Assembly: GCF_004116495.1 (NCBI RefSeq)
Contig: NZ_PDKC01000021.1
Coordinates: forward strand, 1-52,756
Length of the DNA stretch: 52,756 nucleotides
Source of the DNA: Arcobacter sp. CECT 8985
GTDB taxonomy: Bacteria; Campylobacterota; Campylobacteria; Campylobacterales; Arcobacteraceae
Direction of reading: 5' to 3'
Below are positions 10,887 through 29,457 of the stretch, in pieces. The translations under genes and the position numbers were made by a program. Each line of letters opens with the position of its first letter. Within the stretch, counting starts at the first letter, position 1. The notes under the pieces were generated by a model. It was not told where the DNA came from and ran no database searches. It worked only from the letters and a program-made list of their open reading frames with translations.

Positions 10887-11249
10887 ATGATTTTTATTGT
10901 TATCATTTTATTTGTTATTATAGCAATAACAGCGTTAAATTTCTATGATAACTCAAATATTACAAAACTTGAAAACTATATAAAAACTCAAAATTGTATA
11001 GAATCAAATTATTCAAGGGGATATTATAAAGCTATTTGTCCTAAAAAGATTTTAAAATTAGAAAATAGTTTTACAATTAATATACAAAAGAATAAAAAAG
11101 AGATTTTATATGATAATATACGCAGCATAAAACACAAAAATAATATTATATATATAAATAAAGAAAAATTTGAATTCAAAAAAGATGAGAATGCAAAAAG
11201 ATTTTACAAAATATTACAGGATAAGTTAAGCAATGACAGAAATAGTTGA
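10887..11249 (+). CDS. Small N-terminally membrane-anchored protein, unknown
   Basis: This 120-residue protein starts with one strongly hydrophobic helix (IFIVIILFVIIAITALNFY) and continues as a Lys-rich soluble domain with two Cys (in NCIES and AICPKK) and a beta-rich middle (NIIYINKEKFEFKKDENAKRFYKIL). It is probably anchored in the inner membrane; the side of the domain cannot be decided. AAAAGG lies 7 bases before the ATG. Its last 17 bases overlap the AAA+ ATPase gene, so the two form one transcription unit and may act together. No family recognised. Confidence 0.65.
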   Translation: MIFIVIILFVIIAITALNFYDNSNITKLENYIKTQNCIESNYSRGYYKAICPKKILKLENSFTINIQKNKKEILYDNIRSIKHKNNIIYINKEKFEFKKDENAKRFYKILQDKLSNDRNS

Positions 11250-12969
11250 TTTTTTAAAAGCAAAAGATGTAAGTAAAGTTCCTTTTTTTTCACAATTAAA
11301 ATGTACTTTAGAAGAAGCAAAAATTTTACAATTTTTAACAAAAGAGTATATAGTAGGAAGAGATTCTTTGGTTGTTGTTGATGTACTTAGTGAATTTTAT
11401 GATGTTAAAAGTTATGAACATTTATACAAAGTACAAGATATTAAGTCATTACTTGAATTAGGTTGGTTGGCTCACAATAGTTTTGAACATGTGAAAATAA
11501 GTGAAATATCAAGATTAGAGTTATTAAATTCAAGTATTTCTTTATCTACTTCTTTTTTAAAATTATTAGAAGATGGTTCATTAGATTTCGTTCTTCCAGA
11601 GATTAAAAAATATAGCGATCATTTGGAGTATTTACAAGATCAATTTTTTAAAATTGATTTGGCTAAACAGCTAAATATGGTAAAAAGAAATTTTGATGAA
11701 AATTCACCTAATAGAAATAGATTAAAATCAAAACTTTTAATGCTTGAAAATAGAATTAAAGAGAGAGTAAAAGTCACTGAACATGAAATAATGTTAGAAG
11801 ATTTTTTCAAAGAACACTCTTTAACTGAACAAGAACAGATGATATTTCTTGCTTTATTAAAAGAGGAATATTCAGGTGGAGATGGAACAATTAGAGATAT
11901 GAATTATTTAATTGAATTAATTTCTAGTGATGATTATGAAAAGATAAAATTTAGGAGTTTACTAGAAGAGAGTTCAAAACTAGTTTCTAAAAATCTAATA
12001 GATTATGATGAGGTTTTAAGTGGATTTGGTGGAATTAATAGAAACTTCTTTATTCCAGATGATATATTGTATAAAATATCTCATCCTACAAAGAAAAAGA
12101 AAAGAACTCCAAAATTAAAATTAAATTCAGTAATAAAAGAACAAGAGATGTTTGAACTTGTTTCTACTACTAAAAGTTTAGATGATGTAGTTTTAAATGA
12201 TAAAACAAGAGATACATTAAATGCATTATTAAAGCAAGTAGATAAAAATGTTTTAAATAAATTAAAACAGTGGGGAGTTAAGGAGAAAAAAAGAGGAATT
12301 GAAGCAAGAATTATTTTTTATGGTTTCGCAGGAACAGGAAAAACACTTACTGCGCTAGCTTTAGCCAAGTCTTTAAAAAGAGAAGTCCTTAGTTTTGACT
12401 GTAGTAAAATTTTATCTATGTATGTTGGAGAGAGTGAGAAAAATGTTAGAAATATTTTTGATACATATAAAGATTTAGTTCAAAGAACTAAAAGTGAACC
12501 AATTTTATTACTTAATGAAGCAGATCAATTTTTAAGTTCAAGAAGTACAGCTTCTAATAGTGGAAGTGAAAAGATGCATAATCAAATGCAAAATATATTT
12601 TTAGAACAAATAGAGAGATTTGATGGAATTTTGATTGCTACTACAAATCTTTTAGAATCAATAGATACTGCTTTTTCAAGAAGATTCAATTATAAAATTG
12701 AGTTTAATAAACCAAATATAAAACAAAGAAGAGAACTTTGGAAAAAACTTCTTCCTTCAGCACTTCCTTTAAGTGAAGATTTTGACTTAGAAGAGTTATT
12801 AACTTATGAATTAACTGGTGGACAAATTGAATTGATAATTAAAAATACAGCATATAAAGTTGCACTTGATGATGAACCTACTTTTACAGTTAATTCATTT
12901 AAAGATCAAATCGAAAAAGAGTTAAAAGGTAATTTTGACAGTGAAAATAAGATGGGATTTATGAGTTAA
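11233..12969 (+). CDS. AAA+ ATPase with N-terminal helical domain
   Basis: A 578-residue protein with a C-terminal AAA+ module. Walker A is GFAGTGKT at residues 364-371; the Walker B region is ILLLNEAD at 424-431, where the usual Asp before Glu is Asn. A sensor stretch ILIATTN and an arginine-finger segment AFSRRFNYKIEF follow, then a small helical lid. The first ~300 residues are helical, include a likely coiled coil (KRNFDENSPNRNRLKSKLLML) and match no domain I know; they probably recognise substrate. The module resembles chaperone- or protease-like classic AAA domains, but no protease motif is present. It overlaps the preceding membrane protein gene by 17 bases. Cellular role not predicted. 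Confidence 0.85.
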   Translation: MTEIVDFLKAKDVSKVPFFSQLKCTLEEAKILQFLTKEYIVGRDSLVVVDVLSEFYDVKSYEHLYKVQDIKSLLELGWLAHNSFEHVKISEISRLELLNSSISLSTSFLKLLEDGSLDFVLPEIKKYSDHLEYLQDQFFKIDLAKQLNMVKRNFDENSPNRNRLKSKLLMLENRIKERVKVTEHEIMLEDFFKEHSLTEQEQMIFLALLKEEYSGGDGTIRDMNYLIELISSDDYEKIKFRSLLEESSKLVSKNLIDYDEVLSGFGGINRNFFIPDDILYKISHPTKKKKRTPKLKLNSVIKEQEMFELVSTTKSLDDVVLNDKTRDTLNALLKQVDKNVLNKLKQWGVKEKKRGIEARIIFYGFAGTGKTLTALALAKSLKREVLSFDCSKILSMYVGESEKNVRNIFDTYKDLVQRTKSEPILLLNEADQFLSSRSTASNSGSEKMHNQMQNIFLEQIERFDGILIATTNLLESIDTAFSRRFNYKIEFNKPNIKQRRELWKKLLPSALPLSEDFDLEELLTYELTGGQIELIIKNTAYKVALDDEPTFTVNSFKDQIEKELKGNFDSENKMGFMS

Positions 12970-13388: not shown

Positions 13389-13778
13389 ATGACACATATG
13401 GATTTTTCTCATCCGTATTTTGGTGTATTTGTTATGTTTGTTTTGACCTTTGTCGCTTTTATTTTGACAGTAGCTTTAGCAAGGTTTATTAGTCGAAAAA
13501 TTGCTAGATTAAATACAGAGAAATTAAAAGTATCTTTGTACGAATGTGGACCAGAAGCTACAAAACAACCAAATACTATATCAGTGCAGTTTTATTTGAT
13601 GGCATTACTTTTTATTTTATTTGATATTGAAATAATTTTTATGTTTCCATGGGCTGTTGATTTTATTATACTTGGATGGTTCGGTTTTATTGAAATGATT
13701 CTATTTATCGTTCTTTTAACAATCGGATTTATATATGCTTGGAAAAAAGGAGCACTTGAATGGCACAGCATAAAGTAG
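13389..13778 (+). CDS. nuoA: NADH-quinone oxidoreductase-type subunit A
   Basis: Small membrane subunit of respiratory complex I, 129 residues with three transmembrane helices. It has the family loop [17 protein letters not shown] between helices 1 and 2, and the acidic segment [15 protein letters not shown] in helix 2. In the complex it borders the quinone chamber together with NuoH and NuoJ. The ATG follows AAGGAT. It opens a 14-gene operon and its 3' end overlaps nuoB by 19 bases, an unusually long overlap that suggests coupled translation. Confidence 0.95.
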
Positions 13779-14269
13779 ATTATTTCTCAAACGGTGGTGC
13801 ACCAATTGCTTTAACAACTGTAGATAAACTAGTAAATTGGGGACGAAGTAACTCTTTGTGGCCTTTAACTTATGGTTTAGCCTGTTGCGCCATTGAGATG
13901 ATGGCAGCAGGAGCATCAAGATATGACTTTGATAGATTCGGAACAATTTTCAGAGCAAGTCCAAGACAAGCTGATGTTCTTATTATTGCAGGAACTCTAA
14001 CAAAAAAACACGCAGAATTTATGAGAAGACTATATGATCAAATGCCTGATCCTAAATGGGTAATCTCAATGGGTTCATGTGCAAATACAGGTGGAATGTT
14101 TAATACTTATGCAACTGTACAAGGTGCAGATAGAGTTATTCCAGTTGATATTTATCTTCCAGGTTGTGCACCAAGACCTGAAACACTTCAATACGCATTA
14201 ATGATGTTACAAAAGAAAATAAGAAAAGAATCTATTTTTAGATCAATAAAGAAAAAGAGATTAGTATGA
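13760..14269 (+). CDS. nuoB: Complex I subunit B (cluster N2)
   Basis: Peripheral-arm subunit holding the terminal [4Fe-4S] cluster N2 that passes electrons to quinone. The four ligands are present: adjacent Cys42-Cys43 ([10 protein letters not shown]), Cys107 (MGSCANTGG) and Cys136 (LPGCAPRPE). At 169 residues it is of normal length. It overlaps nuoA upstream by 19 bases and nuoC downstream through an ATGA junction. Confidence 0.97.
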
Positions 14270-15072
14270 GAGAATATGTAAATAAACAAGATGTACAGAA
14301 AAAATCATATTTTAGTGATAGATTTTATGTAACTCCTACAATTTCTAGAATTGATGTTAATCAAGATGAAATTTTTGCAAATGATGTAAAATATTTATCT
14401 TCTAAAGTTGATATTTTAGATAAATATATACAAAAAGAACATTTAGTACTATATATAAATCCAAATGATAATTTAAAAGTTATAGAAATATTAAAAAATG
14501 AATTAGAATATGACATGATGATTGATATTTCTGCAATTGATTATTTAGCATCAAAAGATGGCTTTGAGATATTTTATGAATTGTTATCAATGAGTAAAAA
14601 TAAAAGATTAAGACTAAAGTTTTTTATACAAGAGAAAGAATCAATTAATTCTGTTTATGGTCTATTTAAAATGGCTAACTGGGCAGAAAGAGAAATGTAT
14701 GATATGTATGGAGTAAAAATACTTAATCACCCAAATATGAAAAGAATTCTTATGCCTAATGATTGGCAAGGACATCCTTTAAGAAAAACATATCCATTAC
14801 AAGGTGATGAATTTGCAGCATGGTATGAAGTTGATAAAATTTTTGGCAAAGAAGCAAGAGATGTAATTGGGCCAGAAATAAGAGATGCTGCTGCAATTGA
14901 TAGATATGATACAACAAGATTTTCAAGACTTGGTCATGAAGTTGCTTTTGGTGATGAAGTTACAAAAGATAATGAACAAAAAACATCAAAACAGTACTTA
15001 GAAGATGATGGAGTTAAATTTATCAAAAAATTTAAAGAAGAAGACTCTGTTACTTTGAAAGAGAGAAAGTAG
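14266..15072 (+). CDS. nuoC: Complex I subunit C
   Basis: The 30-kDa-type peripheral subunit, here separate from NuoD rather than fused as in E. coli. The conserved core [26 protein letters not shown] and the following [13 protein letters not shown] are clear at about residues 140-185. The first ~50 residues and the Lys/Glu-rich last ~30 residues are extensions typical of Campylobacterota forms. It starts inside the nuoB stop codon (ATGA) and ends 3 bases before nuoD. Confidence 0.94.
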
Positions 15073-15075
15073 ATT

Positions 15076-16308
15076 ATGCAAAGACAAACGCCAAATAGAT
15101 TAAAACCATTTTTTGAAAATATAAATTTTGAAAGAGATGATAATGCAATGGTGGTTAACTTTGGGCCACAACATCCTTCTGCTCATGGACAAATGCGACT
15201 TATATTAGAACTTAAAGGTGAAGAAGTTATAAAAGCAAGACCGGATATTGGATATCTTCATAGAGGTATGGAGAAAATGGCAGAAAATATGATCTATAAT
15301 GAATTTCTACCTACAACAGATAGAATGGATTATATTGCTGCAACTTCAAATAATTATGGATTTGCATTAGCAGTTGAAAAATTGTTAGATATTGAAGTTC
15401 CAAGACGAGCAGAAGTTATTAGAACAATGCTTTTAGAGCTAAATAGAATTGTTTCTCATCTATTTTGGTTAGCTACACATGCACTTGATGTTGGAGCAAT
15501 GAGTGTATTTTTATATACATTTAGAGAAAGAGAATTTGCACTTGATTTAATTGAAGATTATTGTGGCGCAAGACTAACTCACAGTACAATAAGAATCGGA
15601 GGTGTTCCTTTAGATTTACCAAAATCATGGTGTGATGATTTAGAAAAATATTTAAAAATTCTTGAAGTAGAAATAGAAAAATATGAAGGTTTATTGACAG
15701 AAAATAGAATTTGGAAGATGAGACTTGAAAATGTTGGTGTTATTTCACAGGATTTGGCAAAAACATGGGGAGTTACTGGAATCGCACTAAGAGCAACTGG
15801 TATTAAATGGGATCTTAGAAAAGAGATGCCTTATGGATTATATCCTGAGTTGGATTTTGATATTCCAATTGCACAAACGGGTGATGCATATGGAAGATAT
15901 AAGTGTTATTTACAAGAGATGAGAGAATCAATTAAAATGTTAAGACAGCTTACGTCTATGTATGAAGATAGTAAATGTGAATTAATGGCACATGCTCCTG
16001 AATATATATCTGCACCTAAAGAGCAAATTATGACACAAAATTACTCTTTAATGCAACATTTTGTTTTAGTTACACAAGGAATGAGACCACCAAAAGGTGA
16101 AGTTTATGTTGCAACTGAATCACCAAAAGGAGAATTAGGTTTTATGGTTGTAAGTGATGGAACTCCTTATGCATATAAACTTAAAGTAAGAGCTCCAAGT
16201 TTTTTCCATACAGGACTTTTAGAAGATTTACTTCCAGGGCATCAACTTGCCGATGTGGTTACTTTAGTTGGTAACTTAAATTTAGTATTTGGTGAAATAG
16301 ATAGATAA
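15076..16308 (+). CDS. nuoD: Complex I subunit D
   Basis: The 49-kDa-type subunit, related to hydrogenase large subunits, which forms the quinone pocket with NuoB. Family motifs are [17 protein letters not shown] (the quinone-binding loop with its His), [26 protein letters not shown] and the C-terminal [21 protein letters not shown]. Length, 410 residues, is normal for an unfused NuoD. The hydrogenase NiFe cysteines are absent, as expected. Confidence 0.97.
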
Positions 16309-16332: not shown

Positions 16333-16590
16333 GTGAAAAGATATGACTTAAGACCCTTAAAAGATAACTTTTATGAACGAATGTTGCAGTTAATAAAAGA
16401 TGATATCAAAGATGGTGAAAATGCGATTTTTTTATTTGAAATAGGAGATTTTTCACCTATACAAAAAAGTGCAGACTTGATATATGAAAATGGCTATACT
16501 TTAATGAATTCTATTAAATTTAATGAAGTAGATTGGACAATAGTTGTAAAAAAAGTAGAACCTGAAAAAAAAGAAATTGAAGATGAATAG
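16333..16590 (+). CDS. Small NuoE-slot protein of Campylobacterota complex I
   Basis: This 85-residue protein occupies the nuoE position, but it lacks the four cysteines that bind the [2Fe-2S] cluster of true NuoE (it has no Cys at all). It starts with GTG at 16333 behind a strong GGAGG and ends in a Lys/Glu-rich tail. By position and size it matches the short protein at this locus in Helicobacter pylori (HP1264) and Campylobacter jejuni (Cj1575c), from memory. It probably helps dock the alternative electron-input module. Alternative electron donors such as flavodoxin have been proposed for these complexes. Confidence 0.8.
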   Translation: MKRYDLRPLKDNFYERMLQLIKDDIKDGENAIFLFEIGDFSPIQKSADLIYENGYTLMNSIKFNEVDWTIVVKKVEPEKKEIEDE

Positions 16591-16597
16591 GAAAAAA

Positions 16598-17395
16598 ATG
16601 AGTAAATTAGAAGTTTTAAAAAATAGTGATTTTATTTTATGTTTTGGTCAATTCTTGGCTAATACTAATGAAAATATAGTTGATTTTATTAATTATGCAA
16701 AAAATACAAATGGTGCACAAGTTGTTTATATGCATGCTGTTGATAGTTTAGCATTAAAAGACTTTTATACTCAGTTTATTAAATATGAAGCAGGTAGTGA
16801 AGAGGGTGTTAGTGCATTACTTTTAGATACTTTAGTTCAAAATCCAAGTGATAAAATTAAAGCATATATTGATGATTTGGATATTGGTTATATCTCTGCT
16901 GAATCAAGTGCTGGTGAAGAAGAGTTTGAAGAAATTTTAGAAAAATCTAAAAATAGTAAATCAAAAGTTTTATTTGTTGGTGATGATATTTTTTCTCATG
17001 GTAGAGTTGAAAATATTAAAAAAATGTTAACAGCAATTGATAAATATAGTGATTTTGAAGTTGTATGTGAATCTGAATTTAGATTAGATAATGAAGAGCT
17101 TGAAGAAGTAGAAGAGTTACTTCCTTATAATGGAACAGTTATTTACTCTTATGTTGATAAACAAAAAGATGAGAGTATAGTTTATGCAAGTGCATCTTTT
17201 ATAAGAATTGCAAAAGTAAATGATAAAGATAAAATTAAATTAATATCTTCTAATGATGAAACTGTTAAAACTATTAAATTAGATGATACTTTACAAAGTA
17301 CAATTGCAATTTGTTCAACAAAAGAAAAAGGTGATGATTTCTTATCATGTGGGTATATTTATAAACCCGTAAAAATAGAAAGGCTAGAAGATTGA
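16598..17395 (+). CDS. NuoF-slot protein related to the C-terminal half of NuoG
   Basis: The protein has 265 residues from the ATG at 16598, which follows AGG by 7 bases; TTG 16577 and ATG 16583 are in frame but poorly placed. It sits where nuoF should be, yet has no NADH- or FMN-binding glycine motifs and no CxxCxxC cluster site, so it cannot be a functional NuoF. Two stretches look like the neighbouring NuoG: SDFILCFGQFL (residues 10-20) against SNFVISVGSFL (374-384), and residues 122-157 (VGDDIFSHG... DKYSDFEVV) against NuoG 537-572 (IGEDLIFHP... EKYTKFDVV). It therefore seems to be a degenerate molybdopterin-oxidoreductase-fold protein. It is the positional counterpart of HP1265/Cj1574c. 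Confidence 0.75.
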   Translation: MSKLEVLKNSDFILCFGQFLANTNENIVDFINYAKNTNGAQVVYMHAVDSLALKDFYTQFIKYEAGSEEGVSALLLDTLVQNPSDKIKAYIDDLDIGYISAESSAGEEEFEEILEKSKNSKSKVLFVGDDIFSHGRVENIKKMLTAIDKYSDFEVVCESEFRLDNEELEEVEELLPYNGTVIYSYVDKQKDESIVYASASFIRIAKVNDKDKIKLISSNDETVKTIKLDDTLQSTIAICSTKEKGDDFLSCGYIYKPVKIERLED

Positions 17396-19872
17396 GTGAT
17401 TTAATATCTTTAAATATTGATGGAAAACTTTGTAAAGCAAAAGAGGGTGAATCTTTATTAAATATAGCAAGAGCAAATGGAATATTTATTCCTGCTGTTT
17501 GTTATTTGACAAGATGTAGTCCAACTTTAGCATGTAGATTGTGTCTTGTAGAAGCTGATGGTAAACAAGTATATGCATGTAATGCAAAAGCTAAAGAGGG
17601 CATGGATATTAAAACTACTACTGAAAATATTGCAAAAGAAAGAAGAGCAATAATGGAAGTATATGACGTAAATCATCCTCTGCAGTGTGGTGTTTGTGAC
17701 CAAAGTGGAGAGTGTGAATTACAAAATTATAGTTTATATATGAAAGTTGATTCTCAAAGTTATTCAATTAAAGATGTTCCAAGACCAGCTCAACATTGGG
17801 GAGTTATGAATTATGACCCAGGGTTATGTATTGTTTGTGAGAAATGTGTAACTGTATGTAAAGATATGATAGGTTCAAATGCTTTAAGTACAGTAAAAAG
17901 AGGTTCAGAAGCAATTGAAAAAACATTTAAAGATAGTATGCCAAAAGATGCTTATTCAATGTGGAATAAGCTTAATAAATCGTTGATTGGATTTGATGAA
18001 AACTCATGTACAGATTGTGGGGAATGTATTTCTGTTTGCCCTGTTGGTGCATTGGTTTCAAATGATTTTCAATATAAATCAAATGCTTGGGAATTAACAA
18101 AAATTCCTGCTTCAAATCCACATTCAAGTGACTGTGCATTAATGTATTATGAAAAAAAACATGAATCAATTGAGAAACATAGTACTCAGAAAATTTATAG
18201 AGTAACAAATGATCATCACTATGTATCTTTAAATGGTGCAGCAAGATTTGCTTATGATTTTGAAAATAAAGTCGAATCAAAAGATAATAAAGCATTTCAA
18301 GAAGCAATAGAAGCATTTAAAAAAGCAAATAGTGTGAAATTTAATTCTTACATTACAAATGAAGAGGCTTTAATTTTACAAAAACTAAAAGAAAAGTTAG
18401 GTTTTAAACTTGTAAATGATGATGCTTTTAAATATCAAAGATTTTTAAAAGAGTATTCAAAAAATACAGGTAAATCTCTTTATAGTGCAGATTTAAAAGA
18501 TATACATGAATCAAACTTTGTAATTTCAGTTGGGTCATTTTTAAAACATGATTTACCAAATGCAAGATATGCATTTAATAATTCAGTTGTTTTAAATAAA
18601 GGAAGTGCTTTATATTTTCATCCTTTAGAAGATACCGCTATGCAAAAAGTTGGTAAAAAAGGGAAAACTACAGATTTTATTTTTCATAAGCCATTAAAAG
18701 AAGAGTCAATCTTATATTTTATTCTTGATGTTTTTGCAAATGAAAACTTACCTGAAAATATTAAACAATATTTAAAATCACTAGAAGAGCAAAGAGTTAA
18801 AGTTGTTCTTGAAAATAAAAAAGAAGAAATAGTTGAAAATATAGTTGATGAAAATTCAGGTGAAAAAAAAGAAGTAAAAAAAATGGTTACTAAAAAAGTT
18901 GAGACAGAGGTGAAATATGTCTACTCAAAACTTCTTGATGAAATAGGAAAAGATGAAACTTTTTATGAATTAATTGATTCAATGTTATTGAAAAAAGATA
19001 AGTTTACATTAATTATTGGTGAGGATTTGATATTTCATCCTAACTGGAAAAACCTTGCAAAATTAACTGCATTAATAGAAAAATATACAAAATTTGATGT
19101 AGTAATTCTTCCTACAAAAACAAATACCTTAGGAGTTAGCTTAATTTGTGAACTTGATGAAAAAGAAGAGGGCTTTACTGTTGGATATAACGAAAAAGCT
19201 CAATTTCAATTAAGTGCTTTAGGTGATGGTGATTTAGATATCCCTGCATTAAATCAGCAAGAAGGAACTTTTGTAAATATAGATAAAAAAGTGGTACCAA
19301 CGAATGCAGCACTTCCTTATAATGGATATGTATTAAACGATATTGCAAATGAATTATTAGATGAACAAAAAGAGTTTACTATTGAATATACAAAACAACT
19401 TCCTATATCAAAAGGGTTTAAGGAAATTGAGTTTGATTCTTTAACTAACTATTTTTCAAATGATAGGCAAGAATATAGAGGTTATGTACTTGATAATTTA
19501 GTATCTGATCAAATAAGTGAATTAAATCATATTTCTGATTTTAAAGATTTTATTGTTGATAATGATGAAATAATTATTTATAGAGCAAATCCAATTAATA
19601 TATTTAATGAATTTGTTGCAATTTCACATGAGTTTAAAAATAAAGCAAAAACTGGAATGTATGTTTCAAAATCACTTCTTGATGAGTTAGGAATTATTGA
19701 AAATAGTAGCGTGATTGTTAGTGCAAAAACTAAAACATTGGAACTCAATGTATATGTAGATAAACAACTTGAAGGAAAAATAGCATATATTTCGACATTT
19801 GACAAATCTATAGATACAAAAGAGTTTTTTGATTCATATAGATATTCAAAAGCTAAGATTGTAAAGGCATAG
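17392..19872 (+). CDS. nuoG: Complex I subunit G
   Basis: Large iron-sulfur subunit, 826 residues. The N-terminal [2Fe-2S] site is Cys37, Cys48, Cys51, Cys63. His95, Cys99, Cys102, Cys108 form the His-ligated [4Fe-4S] site. Two ferredoxin-type clusters follow (CIVCEKCVTVC and CTDCGECISVCPVG, about residues 149-212). No further CxxCxxxC motif follows, so cluster N7 is absent. The C-terminal ~600 residues have a degenerate molybdopterin-oxidoreductase fold without cofactor residues. They carry a Lys/Glu-rich insertion near residues 472-511. The TTG start at 17392 overlaps the previous stop (TTGA). In this organism electrons probably enter NuoG from something other than NuoEF. Confidence 0.93.
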   Translation: MSDLISLNIDGKLCKAKEGESLLNIARANGIFIPAVCYLTRCSPTLACRLCLVEADGKQVYACNAKAKEGMDIKTTTENIAKERRAIMEVYDVNHPLQCGVCDQSGECELQNYSLYMKVDSQSYSIKDVPRPAQHWGVMNYDPGLCIVCEKCVTVCKDMIGSNALSTVKRGSEAIEKTFKDSMPKDAYSMWNKLNKSLIGFDENSCTDCGECISVCPVGALVSNDFQYKSNAWELTKIPASNPHSSDCALMYYEKKHESIEKHSTQKIYRVTNDHHYVSLNGAARFAYDFENKVESKDNKAFQEAIEAFKKANSVKFNSYITNEEALILQKLKEKLGFKLVNDDAFKYQRFLKEYSKNTGKSLYSADLKDIHESNFVISVGSFLKHDLPNARYAFNNSVVLNKGSALYFHPLEDTAMQKVGKKGKTTDFIFHKPLKEESILYFILDVFANENLPENIKQYLKSLEEQRVKVVLENKKEEIVENIVDENSGEKKEVKKMVTKKVETEVKYVYSKLLDEIGKDETFYELIDSMLLKKDKFTLIIGEDLIFHPNWKNLAKLTALIEKYTKFDVVILPTKTNTLGVSLICELDEKEEGFTVGYNEKAQFQLSALGDGDLDIPALNQQEGTFVNIDKKVVPTNAALPYNGYVLNDIANELLDEQKEFTIEYTKQLPISKGFKEIEFDSLTNYFSNDRQEYRGYVLDNLVSDQISELNHISDFKDFIVDNDEIIIYRANPINIFNEFVAISHEFKNKAKTGMYVSKSLLDELGIIENSSVIVSAKTKTLELNVYVDKQLEGKIAYISTFDKSIDTKEFFDSYRYSKAKIVKA

Positions 19873-28593: not shown

Positions 28594-29457
28594 TTGAAAA
28601 CAATAAGCGTTGCACACTCACCAGATGCTGATGATATTTTTATGTACTATGCAATTAAATTTGGTTGGGTTACTGCAAAAGATGCAAAATTTGAAAATAT
28701 AGCAGCTGATATTGAAACATTAAATCAAGCTACATTAAAAGGTGAATATGATATTTGTGCTATTTCTTTTGCTTTATATCCATTTGTAAAAGATGATTAT
28801 GCACTATTAAAAACTGCTGTATCTTTTGGTCAAGGGTATGGACCAAAACTAATAAAGAAAAAAGACGCAAAATTAAAGAAAAACTTTAAAGTTGCACTTA
28901 GCGGAGAATACACTACAAATGCACTTCTATTTAAAATAGCATATCCTGATGCAAGAATAACATATATGAATTTTCTTGATATTGAAAAAGCTGTTTTAGA
29001 TGGAACTGTTGATGCTGGGGTATTAATTCATGAATCTATATTAAATTATAGTGAAGAGTTAGAAGTACAAAGAGAAATCTGGGATATTTGGGAAGAACTA
29101 AGTGGAGGGGGACTTCCATTACCTTTAGGTGGAATGTGTATTAGAAGATCACTTCCTTTACATAGTGCTATTGATTATGAAAATACACTAATAAAAGCTG
29201 TTGATGTTGCAAATAAAAATAGAAAAGTATTAGCAACAATGCTTTTAGAAAAAGGTCTTATACGAGTTGATGCTCCTACGCTTGATACATATTTAGATTT
29301 ATATGCAAATGATGAATCTATCAATTTAAGTGAAGTTCAATATGAAGCTTTAGATAAGTTATTTGAACTTGGATATAAACATGGTTTTTACGAAAATTTA
29401 GTAAAAGCAAAAGAGTTTTTAATTCCAAGTGAATATGAGGACTTAAGAAACAAGTGA
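28594..29457 (+). CDS. mqnD: 1,4-dihydroxy-6-naphthoate synthase (menaquinone, futalosine pathway)
   Basis: Converts cyclic de-hypoxanthine futalosine to 1,4-dihydroxy-6-naphthoate in the alternative menaquinone route used by Campylobacterota. The 287-residue protein has the substrate-binding-protein-like fold of MqnA/MqnD. SPDADDIFMYY near the N-terminus and GGGLPLPLGGMCIRRSL near residue 175 match MqnD (SPCPNDTF... GLPIPLGG) rather than MqnA. Start is TTG 28594 behind AAGGAA. It overlaps murB by 4 bases (GTGA). Menaquinone is the likely electron acceptor for the complex I encoded nearby. Confidence 0.87.
   Translation: MKTISVAHSPDADDIFMYYAIKFGWVTAKDAKFENIAADIETLNQATLKGEYDICAISFALYPFVKDDYALLKTAVSFGQGYGPKLIKKKDAKLKKNFKVALSGEYTTNALLFKIAYPDARITYMNFLDIEKAVLDGTVDAGVLIHESILNYSEELEVQREIWDIWEELSGGGLPLPLGGMCIRRSLPLHSAIDYENTLIKAVDVANKNRKVLATMLLEKGLIRVDAPTLDTYLDLYANDESINLSEVQYEALDKLFELGYKHGFYENLVKAKEFLIPSEYEDLRNK

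Follow-up and report, generated by a model that had tools for sequence, protein, structure and literature searches.

A NuoY-type protein of epsilon-type complex I operons, apparently reduced from a second NuoG and kept in many genomes without the complex

The gene in the NuoF position of the epsilon-type complex I operon of Arcobacter sp. CECT 8985 almost certainly arose by reduction of a second NuoG, here called NuoG2, and the function of its product, the slot protein, very probably does not depend on epsilon-type complex I. The best explanation as a whole, to which we give a probability of about three in four, is that of a NuoY-type, NuoG2-derived protein of two domains that docks in complex I and has a second role besides. 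The window, which is the whole stretch of 52,756 nucleotides that was analysed, carries an operon in the order nuoA-D, PF16514 gene, slot ORF of 265 aa, NuoG, nuoH-N. Its relevant features are listed below; slot genes in genomes that lack the complex are called orphans.

11233..12969, + strand: AAA ATPase with winged helix, beside nuoA in the window and directly 5' of the orphan slot gene in Aliarcobacter
13389..16308, + strand: nuoA-D of this operon, with nuoD assigned by PF00346 and the rest by order and look
16333..16590, + strand: small partner gene, PF16514, HP1264 type
16598..17395, + strand: slot protein, 265 aa from ATG; in all likelihood a reduced NuoG2, with two predicted molybdopterin-fold domains and no Fe-S domain
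16598..17080, + strand: first domain of the slot protein (residues 1-161), aligning with NuoG2 from residue 363
16778..16933, + strand: most conserved block of the slot protein (residues 61-112, KYE.GSEE ... LDxGYxSAESSxGEEEF), common to NuoG2 and not to the neighbouring NuoG, with core residues kept in orphans
17093..17392, + strand: second domain of the slot protein (residues 166-265), a C-terminal beta domain that comes after the point where the internal block of NuoG2 is absent
17392..19872, + strand: neighbouring NuoG (NuoG1), 826 aa
19874..27246, + strand: nuoH-N of this operon, likewise lettered by order and look
28594..29457, + strand: mqnD-like gene, whose homologue in locus L042 is PF02621; directly 3' of the orphan slot gene in Aliarcobacter

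An alternative start of the slot ORF, TTG at 16577, lies upstream and would run into the preceding gene. A further complex I of the same host contains fused NuoCD together with apparent NuoE and NuoF, the last two recognised by look and mutual homology. The slot gene lies between the PF16514 gene and NuoG, a position that slot-family homologues also hold in other family codes, and gene order suggests that its product is the Y of nuoXY, the name of two epsilon-specific genes in the part of a review that was available (PMC6682613). The operon form is, as judged from sequence, homologous to the slot proteins of other family codes. From named loci and gene order, we infer that codes f1, f2, f3 and g11 stand for Arcobacteraceae, Helicobacteraceae, Campylobacteraceae and Aliarcobacter. 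The AAA ATPase precedes nuoA in many, not all, short-form loci of f1, f10 and Sulfuricurvum.

The original prediction was that this ORF lacks every NuoF motif and that two of its segments are collinear with the neighbouring NuoG. Both points were borne out. No Pfam family reaches its cut-off in the slot ORF; the FMN/NADH-binding, SLBB and N3 4Fe-4S domains of NuoF were not found there, and no NuoF domain was listed at E<=1 in a scan that drops most matches above about 0.1. The two segments lie inside one BLASTP alignment of slot residues 4-156 with NuoG1 residues 368-571 (21% identity, E 2e-7 in a single comparison). Moreover, the NCBIfam model of epsilon-type NuoG, NF006305, matches the slot ORF with E 2e-23, far below its curated cut-off (82/591 bits), and matches all 33 aligned slot-family members. 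When these 33 homologues were compared with 19 NuoG1 sequences profile to profile, the check proposed with the prediction, the probability was 99.7 and E was 8.2e-27, with 22% identity; since the alignment spans 265 columns, the similarity is of whole length, extends beyond the two segments and is not due to chance. The N-terminal 2Fe-2S and 4Fe-4S domains, present in 20/20 NuoG2, were not listed in the slot protein, which is therefore a NuoG derivative and not a NuoG. Whole-length homology to epsilon-type NuoG links it to the NuoG C-terminal half and the Mo-bisPGD oxidoreductases (formate dehydrogenase, NapA, Nqo3), from which it differs in standing alone, without Fe-S domains and the other fold domains.

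The match to NuoG2 is given by an hhalign comparison of the slot family with 20 NuoG2 sequences, with E 5.2e-76 and 36% identity over 272 columns, interrupted by one large internal gap. The slot family matched 58 of the 61 genomes searched in the taxonomic family, the best match lying inside a frame of 518-794 aa in 20 of these; in the same search, G015 and G052 gave no slot match. The loci read with such long frames carry NuoG2 beside NuoG1, after a flavoprotein of ~670 aa. NuoG2 matches Fer2_4, NADH-G_4Fe-4S_3 and Fer4_Nqo3 in all 20 aligned members at E<=0.01, and the slot ORF corresponds to NuoG2 from residue 363 to the end minus one large internal block of ~130 residues. In operons of the Sulfurimonas/Sulfurovum type, NuoG2 is a direct homologue over the 265 residues of the slot protein, but unlike the latter it keeps the Fe-S domains and travels with the GltD-like flavoprotein. 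The missing pieces were mapped by aligning 20 short forms to one NuoG2 (L034) used as a ruler. All 20 lack most of the block ~520-656 and the loop ~679-691 (L034 numbering), the loop being a weak marker, since L078, L098 and L092, out of four further NuoG2 shown, also lack part of it. The Fe-S half is absent in the 20 short forms as judged by their ORF length of 229-351 aa, the ruler alignment starting at residue 340. The view that the slot protein is a stand-alone duplicated part of NuoG therefore stands as regards a reduced molybdopterin-fold piece, but its source is the second, full-length NuoG2 and not the directly neighbouring NuoG.

The flavoprotein before NuoG2 combines the Fe-S region of NuoF with a GltD-like part, and the domains of one of them (P0005) are PF10589, Fer4_20 and Pyr_redox_2. 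Stn/Nfn-type transhydrogenases have a flavoprotein whose domain make-up appears similar to that in the fuller NuoG2 module. It had been suggested that a NuoG-like domain replaced NuoF. The exchange was not so simple, as relatives in the fuller state (Sulfurimonas, Sulfurovum and some Arcobacteraceae) hold a small PF16514 protein, the GltD-like flavoprotein and NuoG2 at the NuoE/F position of the operon. Gene orders were read in 156 loci (the window and L031-L185), among which some genomes were fetched twice, some loci are cut by contig ends and three hold a canonical operon. The order PF16514-short form-NuoG1 was found in 59 of these and PF16514-flavoprotein-NuoG2-NuoG1 in 51, while the flavoprotein, present in 66/156 loci, occurs together with the short form in none (0/156). 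NuoG2 appears without the flavoprotein in four loci (L044, L144, L153, L162), all of them pieces cut at a contig end. That the flavoprotein and the NuoG2 clusters travel together is as expected if one fed the other. The flavoprotein of L034:6257-8272 and its homologues adjoin NuoG2 wherever both are visible and are likely an electron-input module. One genome, G258, has two slot-type nuo operons (L057 and L058), and their slot proteins are placed apart on the tree. In L080:5681-8051 and L102:3028-5444, NuoG1 is represented by a pair of ORFs that overlap (309+537 and 305+510 aa), either a split gene or a sequencing error.

More than one origin of the short form is apparent on a maximum likelihood tree of 88 hand-picked sequences (52 short forms, 28 NuoG2 and 8 NuoG1 as outgroup) over 262 columns. 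Three short forms of Sulfuricurvum type nest inside the Sulfurimonadaceae NuoG2 (98/86, starred), those of f2 are intermixed with f2 NuoG2, and the remaining 40 form one group with support of only 83/81, not starred. The label of short form or NuoG2 changes five times on this tree, three of the changes being forced by starred branches, and a single clade of short forms was rejected by the AU test (p-AU 0.00097, log-likelihood difference 112), a test that suits groups named beforehand. The tree contains long branches (L089, L094, L096, L099) and sequences of odd composition. In principle, the label changes could be losses after one gain, with regain of the Fe-S half, which is unlikely. Because the same pieces are also missing from short forms that are nested apart, either reduction to the same two-domain unit was repeated or a reduced gene recombined with NuoG2; we lean towards repeated reduction over one origin followed by recombination.

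The AlphaFold model of the slot protein has a pLDDT of 93.3 and a pTM of 0.91. VIA aligned 259 of its 265 residues with residues 454-981 of formate dehydrogenase (Z 20.6, rmsd 3.3) and also matched it to FdhF 159-690 (Z 20.3), so that the match is to two separated parts of molybdopterin oxidoreductases, which we take to be domains III and IV of the usual four in FdhF numbering. NuoG chains were among the Foldseek matches (E 1e-4 to 8e-4) and were not among the best 50 VIA matches listed. The model thus predicts a minimal protein of the molybdopterin-oxidoreductase fold, with two of the usual four domains. No conclusions were drawn from the NuoG2 model, which has a pLDDT of 72.5 and is of low quality in its Fe-S half. 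When solved structures were searched by sequence with the slot profile, seven Rab matches (E 0.23-0.77) and a single chain of NuoG type (E 0.91) came up, all of which we regard as due to chance. Cysteine occurs at no column of the tree alignment in more than 11/52 short forms, and in the lack of a conserved cysteine set the slot protein is taken as redox-inert. E64, D95, E102 and E109 are held by at least 96% of short forms and of NuoG2; in orphans, the first three hold in 13/13 and E109 in 85%. In the model, the conserved residues sit at a strand end and on the loops and helices after it.

The same features could suggest a ligand binder, in which half of a dinucleotide site would bind a pterin, a flavin or another nucleotide, making the slot protein a sensor, a carrier or a molybdenum-cofactor protein. 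In favour of this, enzymes with molybdopterin guanine dinucleotide share the fold, the conserved residues are placed at the strand end and in the following loops and helices, and MoaA was found in all 18 slot-bearing genomes tested, one copy (in G078, its only match) being partial with a stop inside. However, of 20 genomes counted as slot-less, 18 have MoaA as well, so that co-occurrence with the molybdenum cofactor does not discriminate, and we know of no molybdopterin-type cofactor in the relatives of this fold within NuoG. We consider such a function unlikely, although less so than the relic, in-trans completion and NuoF readings discussed below.

The case for a second role comes from genomes without epsilon-type complex I. 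The slot-family profile matches 240 of the 249 genomes of the phylum sample, these matches including NuoG2 and NuoG1. PF16514, used as the marker of epsilon-type complex I, is absent in 47/249 genomes, one of which (G251) has the operon on broken contigs according to a NuoG1 search of all 47. Among the 46 genomes without the epsilon-type complex, the slot family is present in 39, which fall in four family codes (f1, f2, f3, f5), and absent in seven (G106, G107, G119, G122, G124, G127, G179); a slot match is also absent in G262 and G293, both with PF16514. In 24 of the 39, no clear NuoG relative was found (G098 has a marginal match, E 3e-4), and in the other 15 the sole NuoG is a canonical one of short length (frame 460-486 aa). 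Pairing with NuoG, proposed as the way in which the slot protein works, thus finds no support as a general rule. As many relatives without the epsilon-type complex keep the slot gene, its product probably has a second job beyond the complex.

The surroundings of the gene were read for 17 of the 39 orphans, including L104, whose locus is truncated at a contig end. Aliarcobacter and G004, a genome outside the sample of 249, share the order AAA ATPase, slot gene, mqnD, murB, plus topA where the stretch reaches, which is the neighbourhood of the window minus the operon except the slot gene. Orphan sites of this kind occur in records named A. vitoriensis and A. cryaerophilus, and A. vandammei has retained the complete operon at this place. 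At a second site, the slot gene adjoins pflA (assigned by the match of the L081 copy to 9hmf_K) in 7/7 loci examined, from f3 orphans and one f2 orphan, with gaps up to ~0.9 kb; two other f3 orphans read (L090, L095) had no pflA beside the slot gene. G101 has the order ubiA-like, miaA-like, pflA, slot gene and the nuo-bearing G170 the order ubiA-like, miaA-like, pflA, nuoN (names other than pflA by eye); in two other nuo-bearing relatives, pflA lies three genes from nuoN in one and was not found within the stretch in the other. The operon is seen to have been excised around the slot gene at both sites, AAA-slot-mqnD and slot-pflA, and the operon-linked and orphan states change seven times on the tree. 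In the search for a conserved neighbour of the orphans, the genes found were either operon flanks (AAA, mqnD; pflA) or variable (hemN-like, dcuA/aspA-like and MoeA-like, by eye). Since these neighbours flank the operon in some relatives or vary, no partner follows from them.

An obvious objection is that the slot protein is a complex I subunit only and that the orphans are relics on their way out after loss of the operon. Some losses do look recent, as the operon is still present in A. vandammei (L129) and L137, which belong to the orphans' group on the tree. Selection was estimated as dN/dS by the Nei-Gojobori method, with some pairs sharing a sequence and L042-L138 repeating L042-L051 (same genome). 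Four Aliarcobacter orphan pairs gave 0.39, 0.54, 0.39 and 0.23, as compared to 0.33 and 0.32 for operon slot genes within the window's genus and, for the L129-L137 pair, 0.44. Silent sites were saturated in three further orphan pairs, and the 0.13 of L090-L095, at dS 2.8, was set aside. The neighbouring AAA and mqnD genes, with 0.07-0.17, evolve more slowly than the orphan slot genes, which speaks for the relic reading and indicates that constraint is moderate. Even so, the four measurable pairs show moderate purifying selection that is not visibly weaker than in operons. Relics would also fit poorly with the presence of the gene in 39/46 complex-less genomes of four family codes, with the retention of E64, D95 and E102 in all 13 orphans, and with the finding of no other operon gene at the orphan sites read, save a weak NuoB-like match (28 bits) in L091 that resembles a hydrogenase subunit. 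Thus, the relic reading is improbable.

Just as improbable is that the slot protein completes a short canonical NuoG in trans where that NuoG exists. In the one protein scanned, the canonical NuoG of L046 (478 aa), there are Fe-S domains and only PF00384 profile positions 208-329, and a NuoG frame of 460-486 aa is present in 15 of the 39 genomes, but the other 24 have no clear NuoG to complete. This NuoG (L046:11742-13178) seems to be without just the two fold domains that make up the slot protein. In the canonical operon, a citrate synthase gene separates the NuoF-like gene from NuoG in L045:5467-6753, L046:10434-11720 and L047:6778-8061 (PF00285, E 4.5e-129, in L045; L046 and L047 judged by look and place). 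A degenerate NuoF (diaphorase), suggested by the operon position and by the annotation of HP1265 as NuoF in the available part of one study (PMC3561388), is refuted by the absence of any NuoF domain and by whole-length homology and a fold that are NuoG-like.

Gene and complex are separable in both directions, as there are also complexes without a slot gene. In L052 and L053 (f1) and L101 and L102 (f2), the PF16514 gene is followed by NuoG1 with no slot gene between. G276 and G093 have only weak slot matches within longer frames, and a profile search of seven more genomes of their genus code gave only weak matches (E 2.5e-5 to 3.9e-4). According to the four slot-less operon loci and the 7/46 genomes that lack both gene and complex, neither of the roles proposed for the slot protein is universal.

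Returning to a NuoG2-derived protein with two roles, where the operon is present it would sit on the peripheral arm, at the former docking place of the NuoG2 fold, and together with the PF16514 protein may help a low-potential carrier, flavodoxin or ferredoxin, to pass electrons to the NuoG1 clusters, while carrying no electrons itself. The chances of such a redox-inert docking role in complex I seem to us about even. In the accessible parts of several papers, the epsilon-specific gene pair is described as the link between flavodoxin or ferredoxin and the complex (PMC6682613, PMC4178425, PMC4585668), and HP1264, the small partner, is stated to bind FMN (PMC6269979). As for the second role, the conserved acidic residues (E64, D95, E102 and the run E107-E109) may bind another partner or ligand that would be needed even without complex I. 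Flavodoxin (PF00258) is absent in three of the 18 slot-bearing genomes tested, all orphans (G010, G064, G087), so that a different partner or ligand must matter there. Flavodoxin as sole partner is disfavoured by this absence.

It is also possible, although we put it forward only tentatively, that NuoY has a conserved job outside complex I and that NuoG2 was cut repeatedly to the same domain pair, which would bind a ligand or partner needed with or without the complex. Weerakoon and Olson are said to have found in 2008 that Cj1574c is essential in C. jejuni and that the nuo genes are not, which, if right, fits the second role. In the parts of the literature available, complex I is described as essential in C. 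jejuni when no exogenous donor is supplied (PMC4257069), Cj1575c was found essential by TraDIS in C. jejuni and C. coli and not in C. lari (PMC10077673), and HP1265, in a study of 16 H. pylori strains, was intact in every strain and was not positively selected (PMC3561388). Cj1574c and HP1265, compared here by position only, resemble the slot gene in lying after the PF16514 gene and before NuoG (nuoXY, PMC6682613, as far as available). They are described as carrier-docking, and the parts of the accounts covered say nothing on an origin from NuoG2. A literature search on two NuoG, NuoG2, nuoXY, Cj1574 and HP1265 gave, among the matches listed (open-licence papers), no title or abstract that dealt with an origin from NuoG or with the orphans, which is weak evidence that both are new. 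The review cited above states, in the part available, that A. butzleri has nuoEF instead of nuoXY (PMC6682613), a statement on which the orphan nuoY-type genes in records named A. vitoriensis and A. cryaerophilus bear; the only record named A. butzleri here (L146, a MAG whose name is doubted) has a full NuoG2 operon.

With these results, an origin and a fold can be given for a hypothetical protein from a phylum that includes major pathogens. A subunit that, in the accounts as far as covered, has so far been explained only by complex I persists without the complex, and natural orphan strains allow its second role to be studied in that setting. If true, a job of NuoY outside complex I would explain why Cj1574c is reportedly essential and the nuo genes dispensable.
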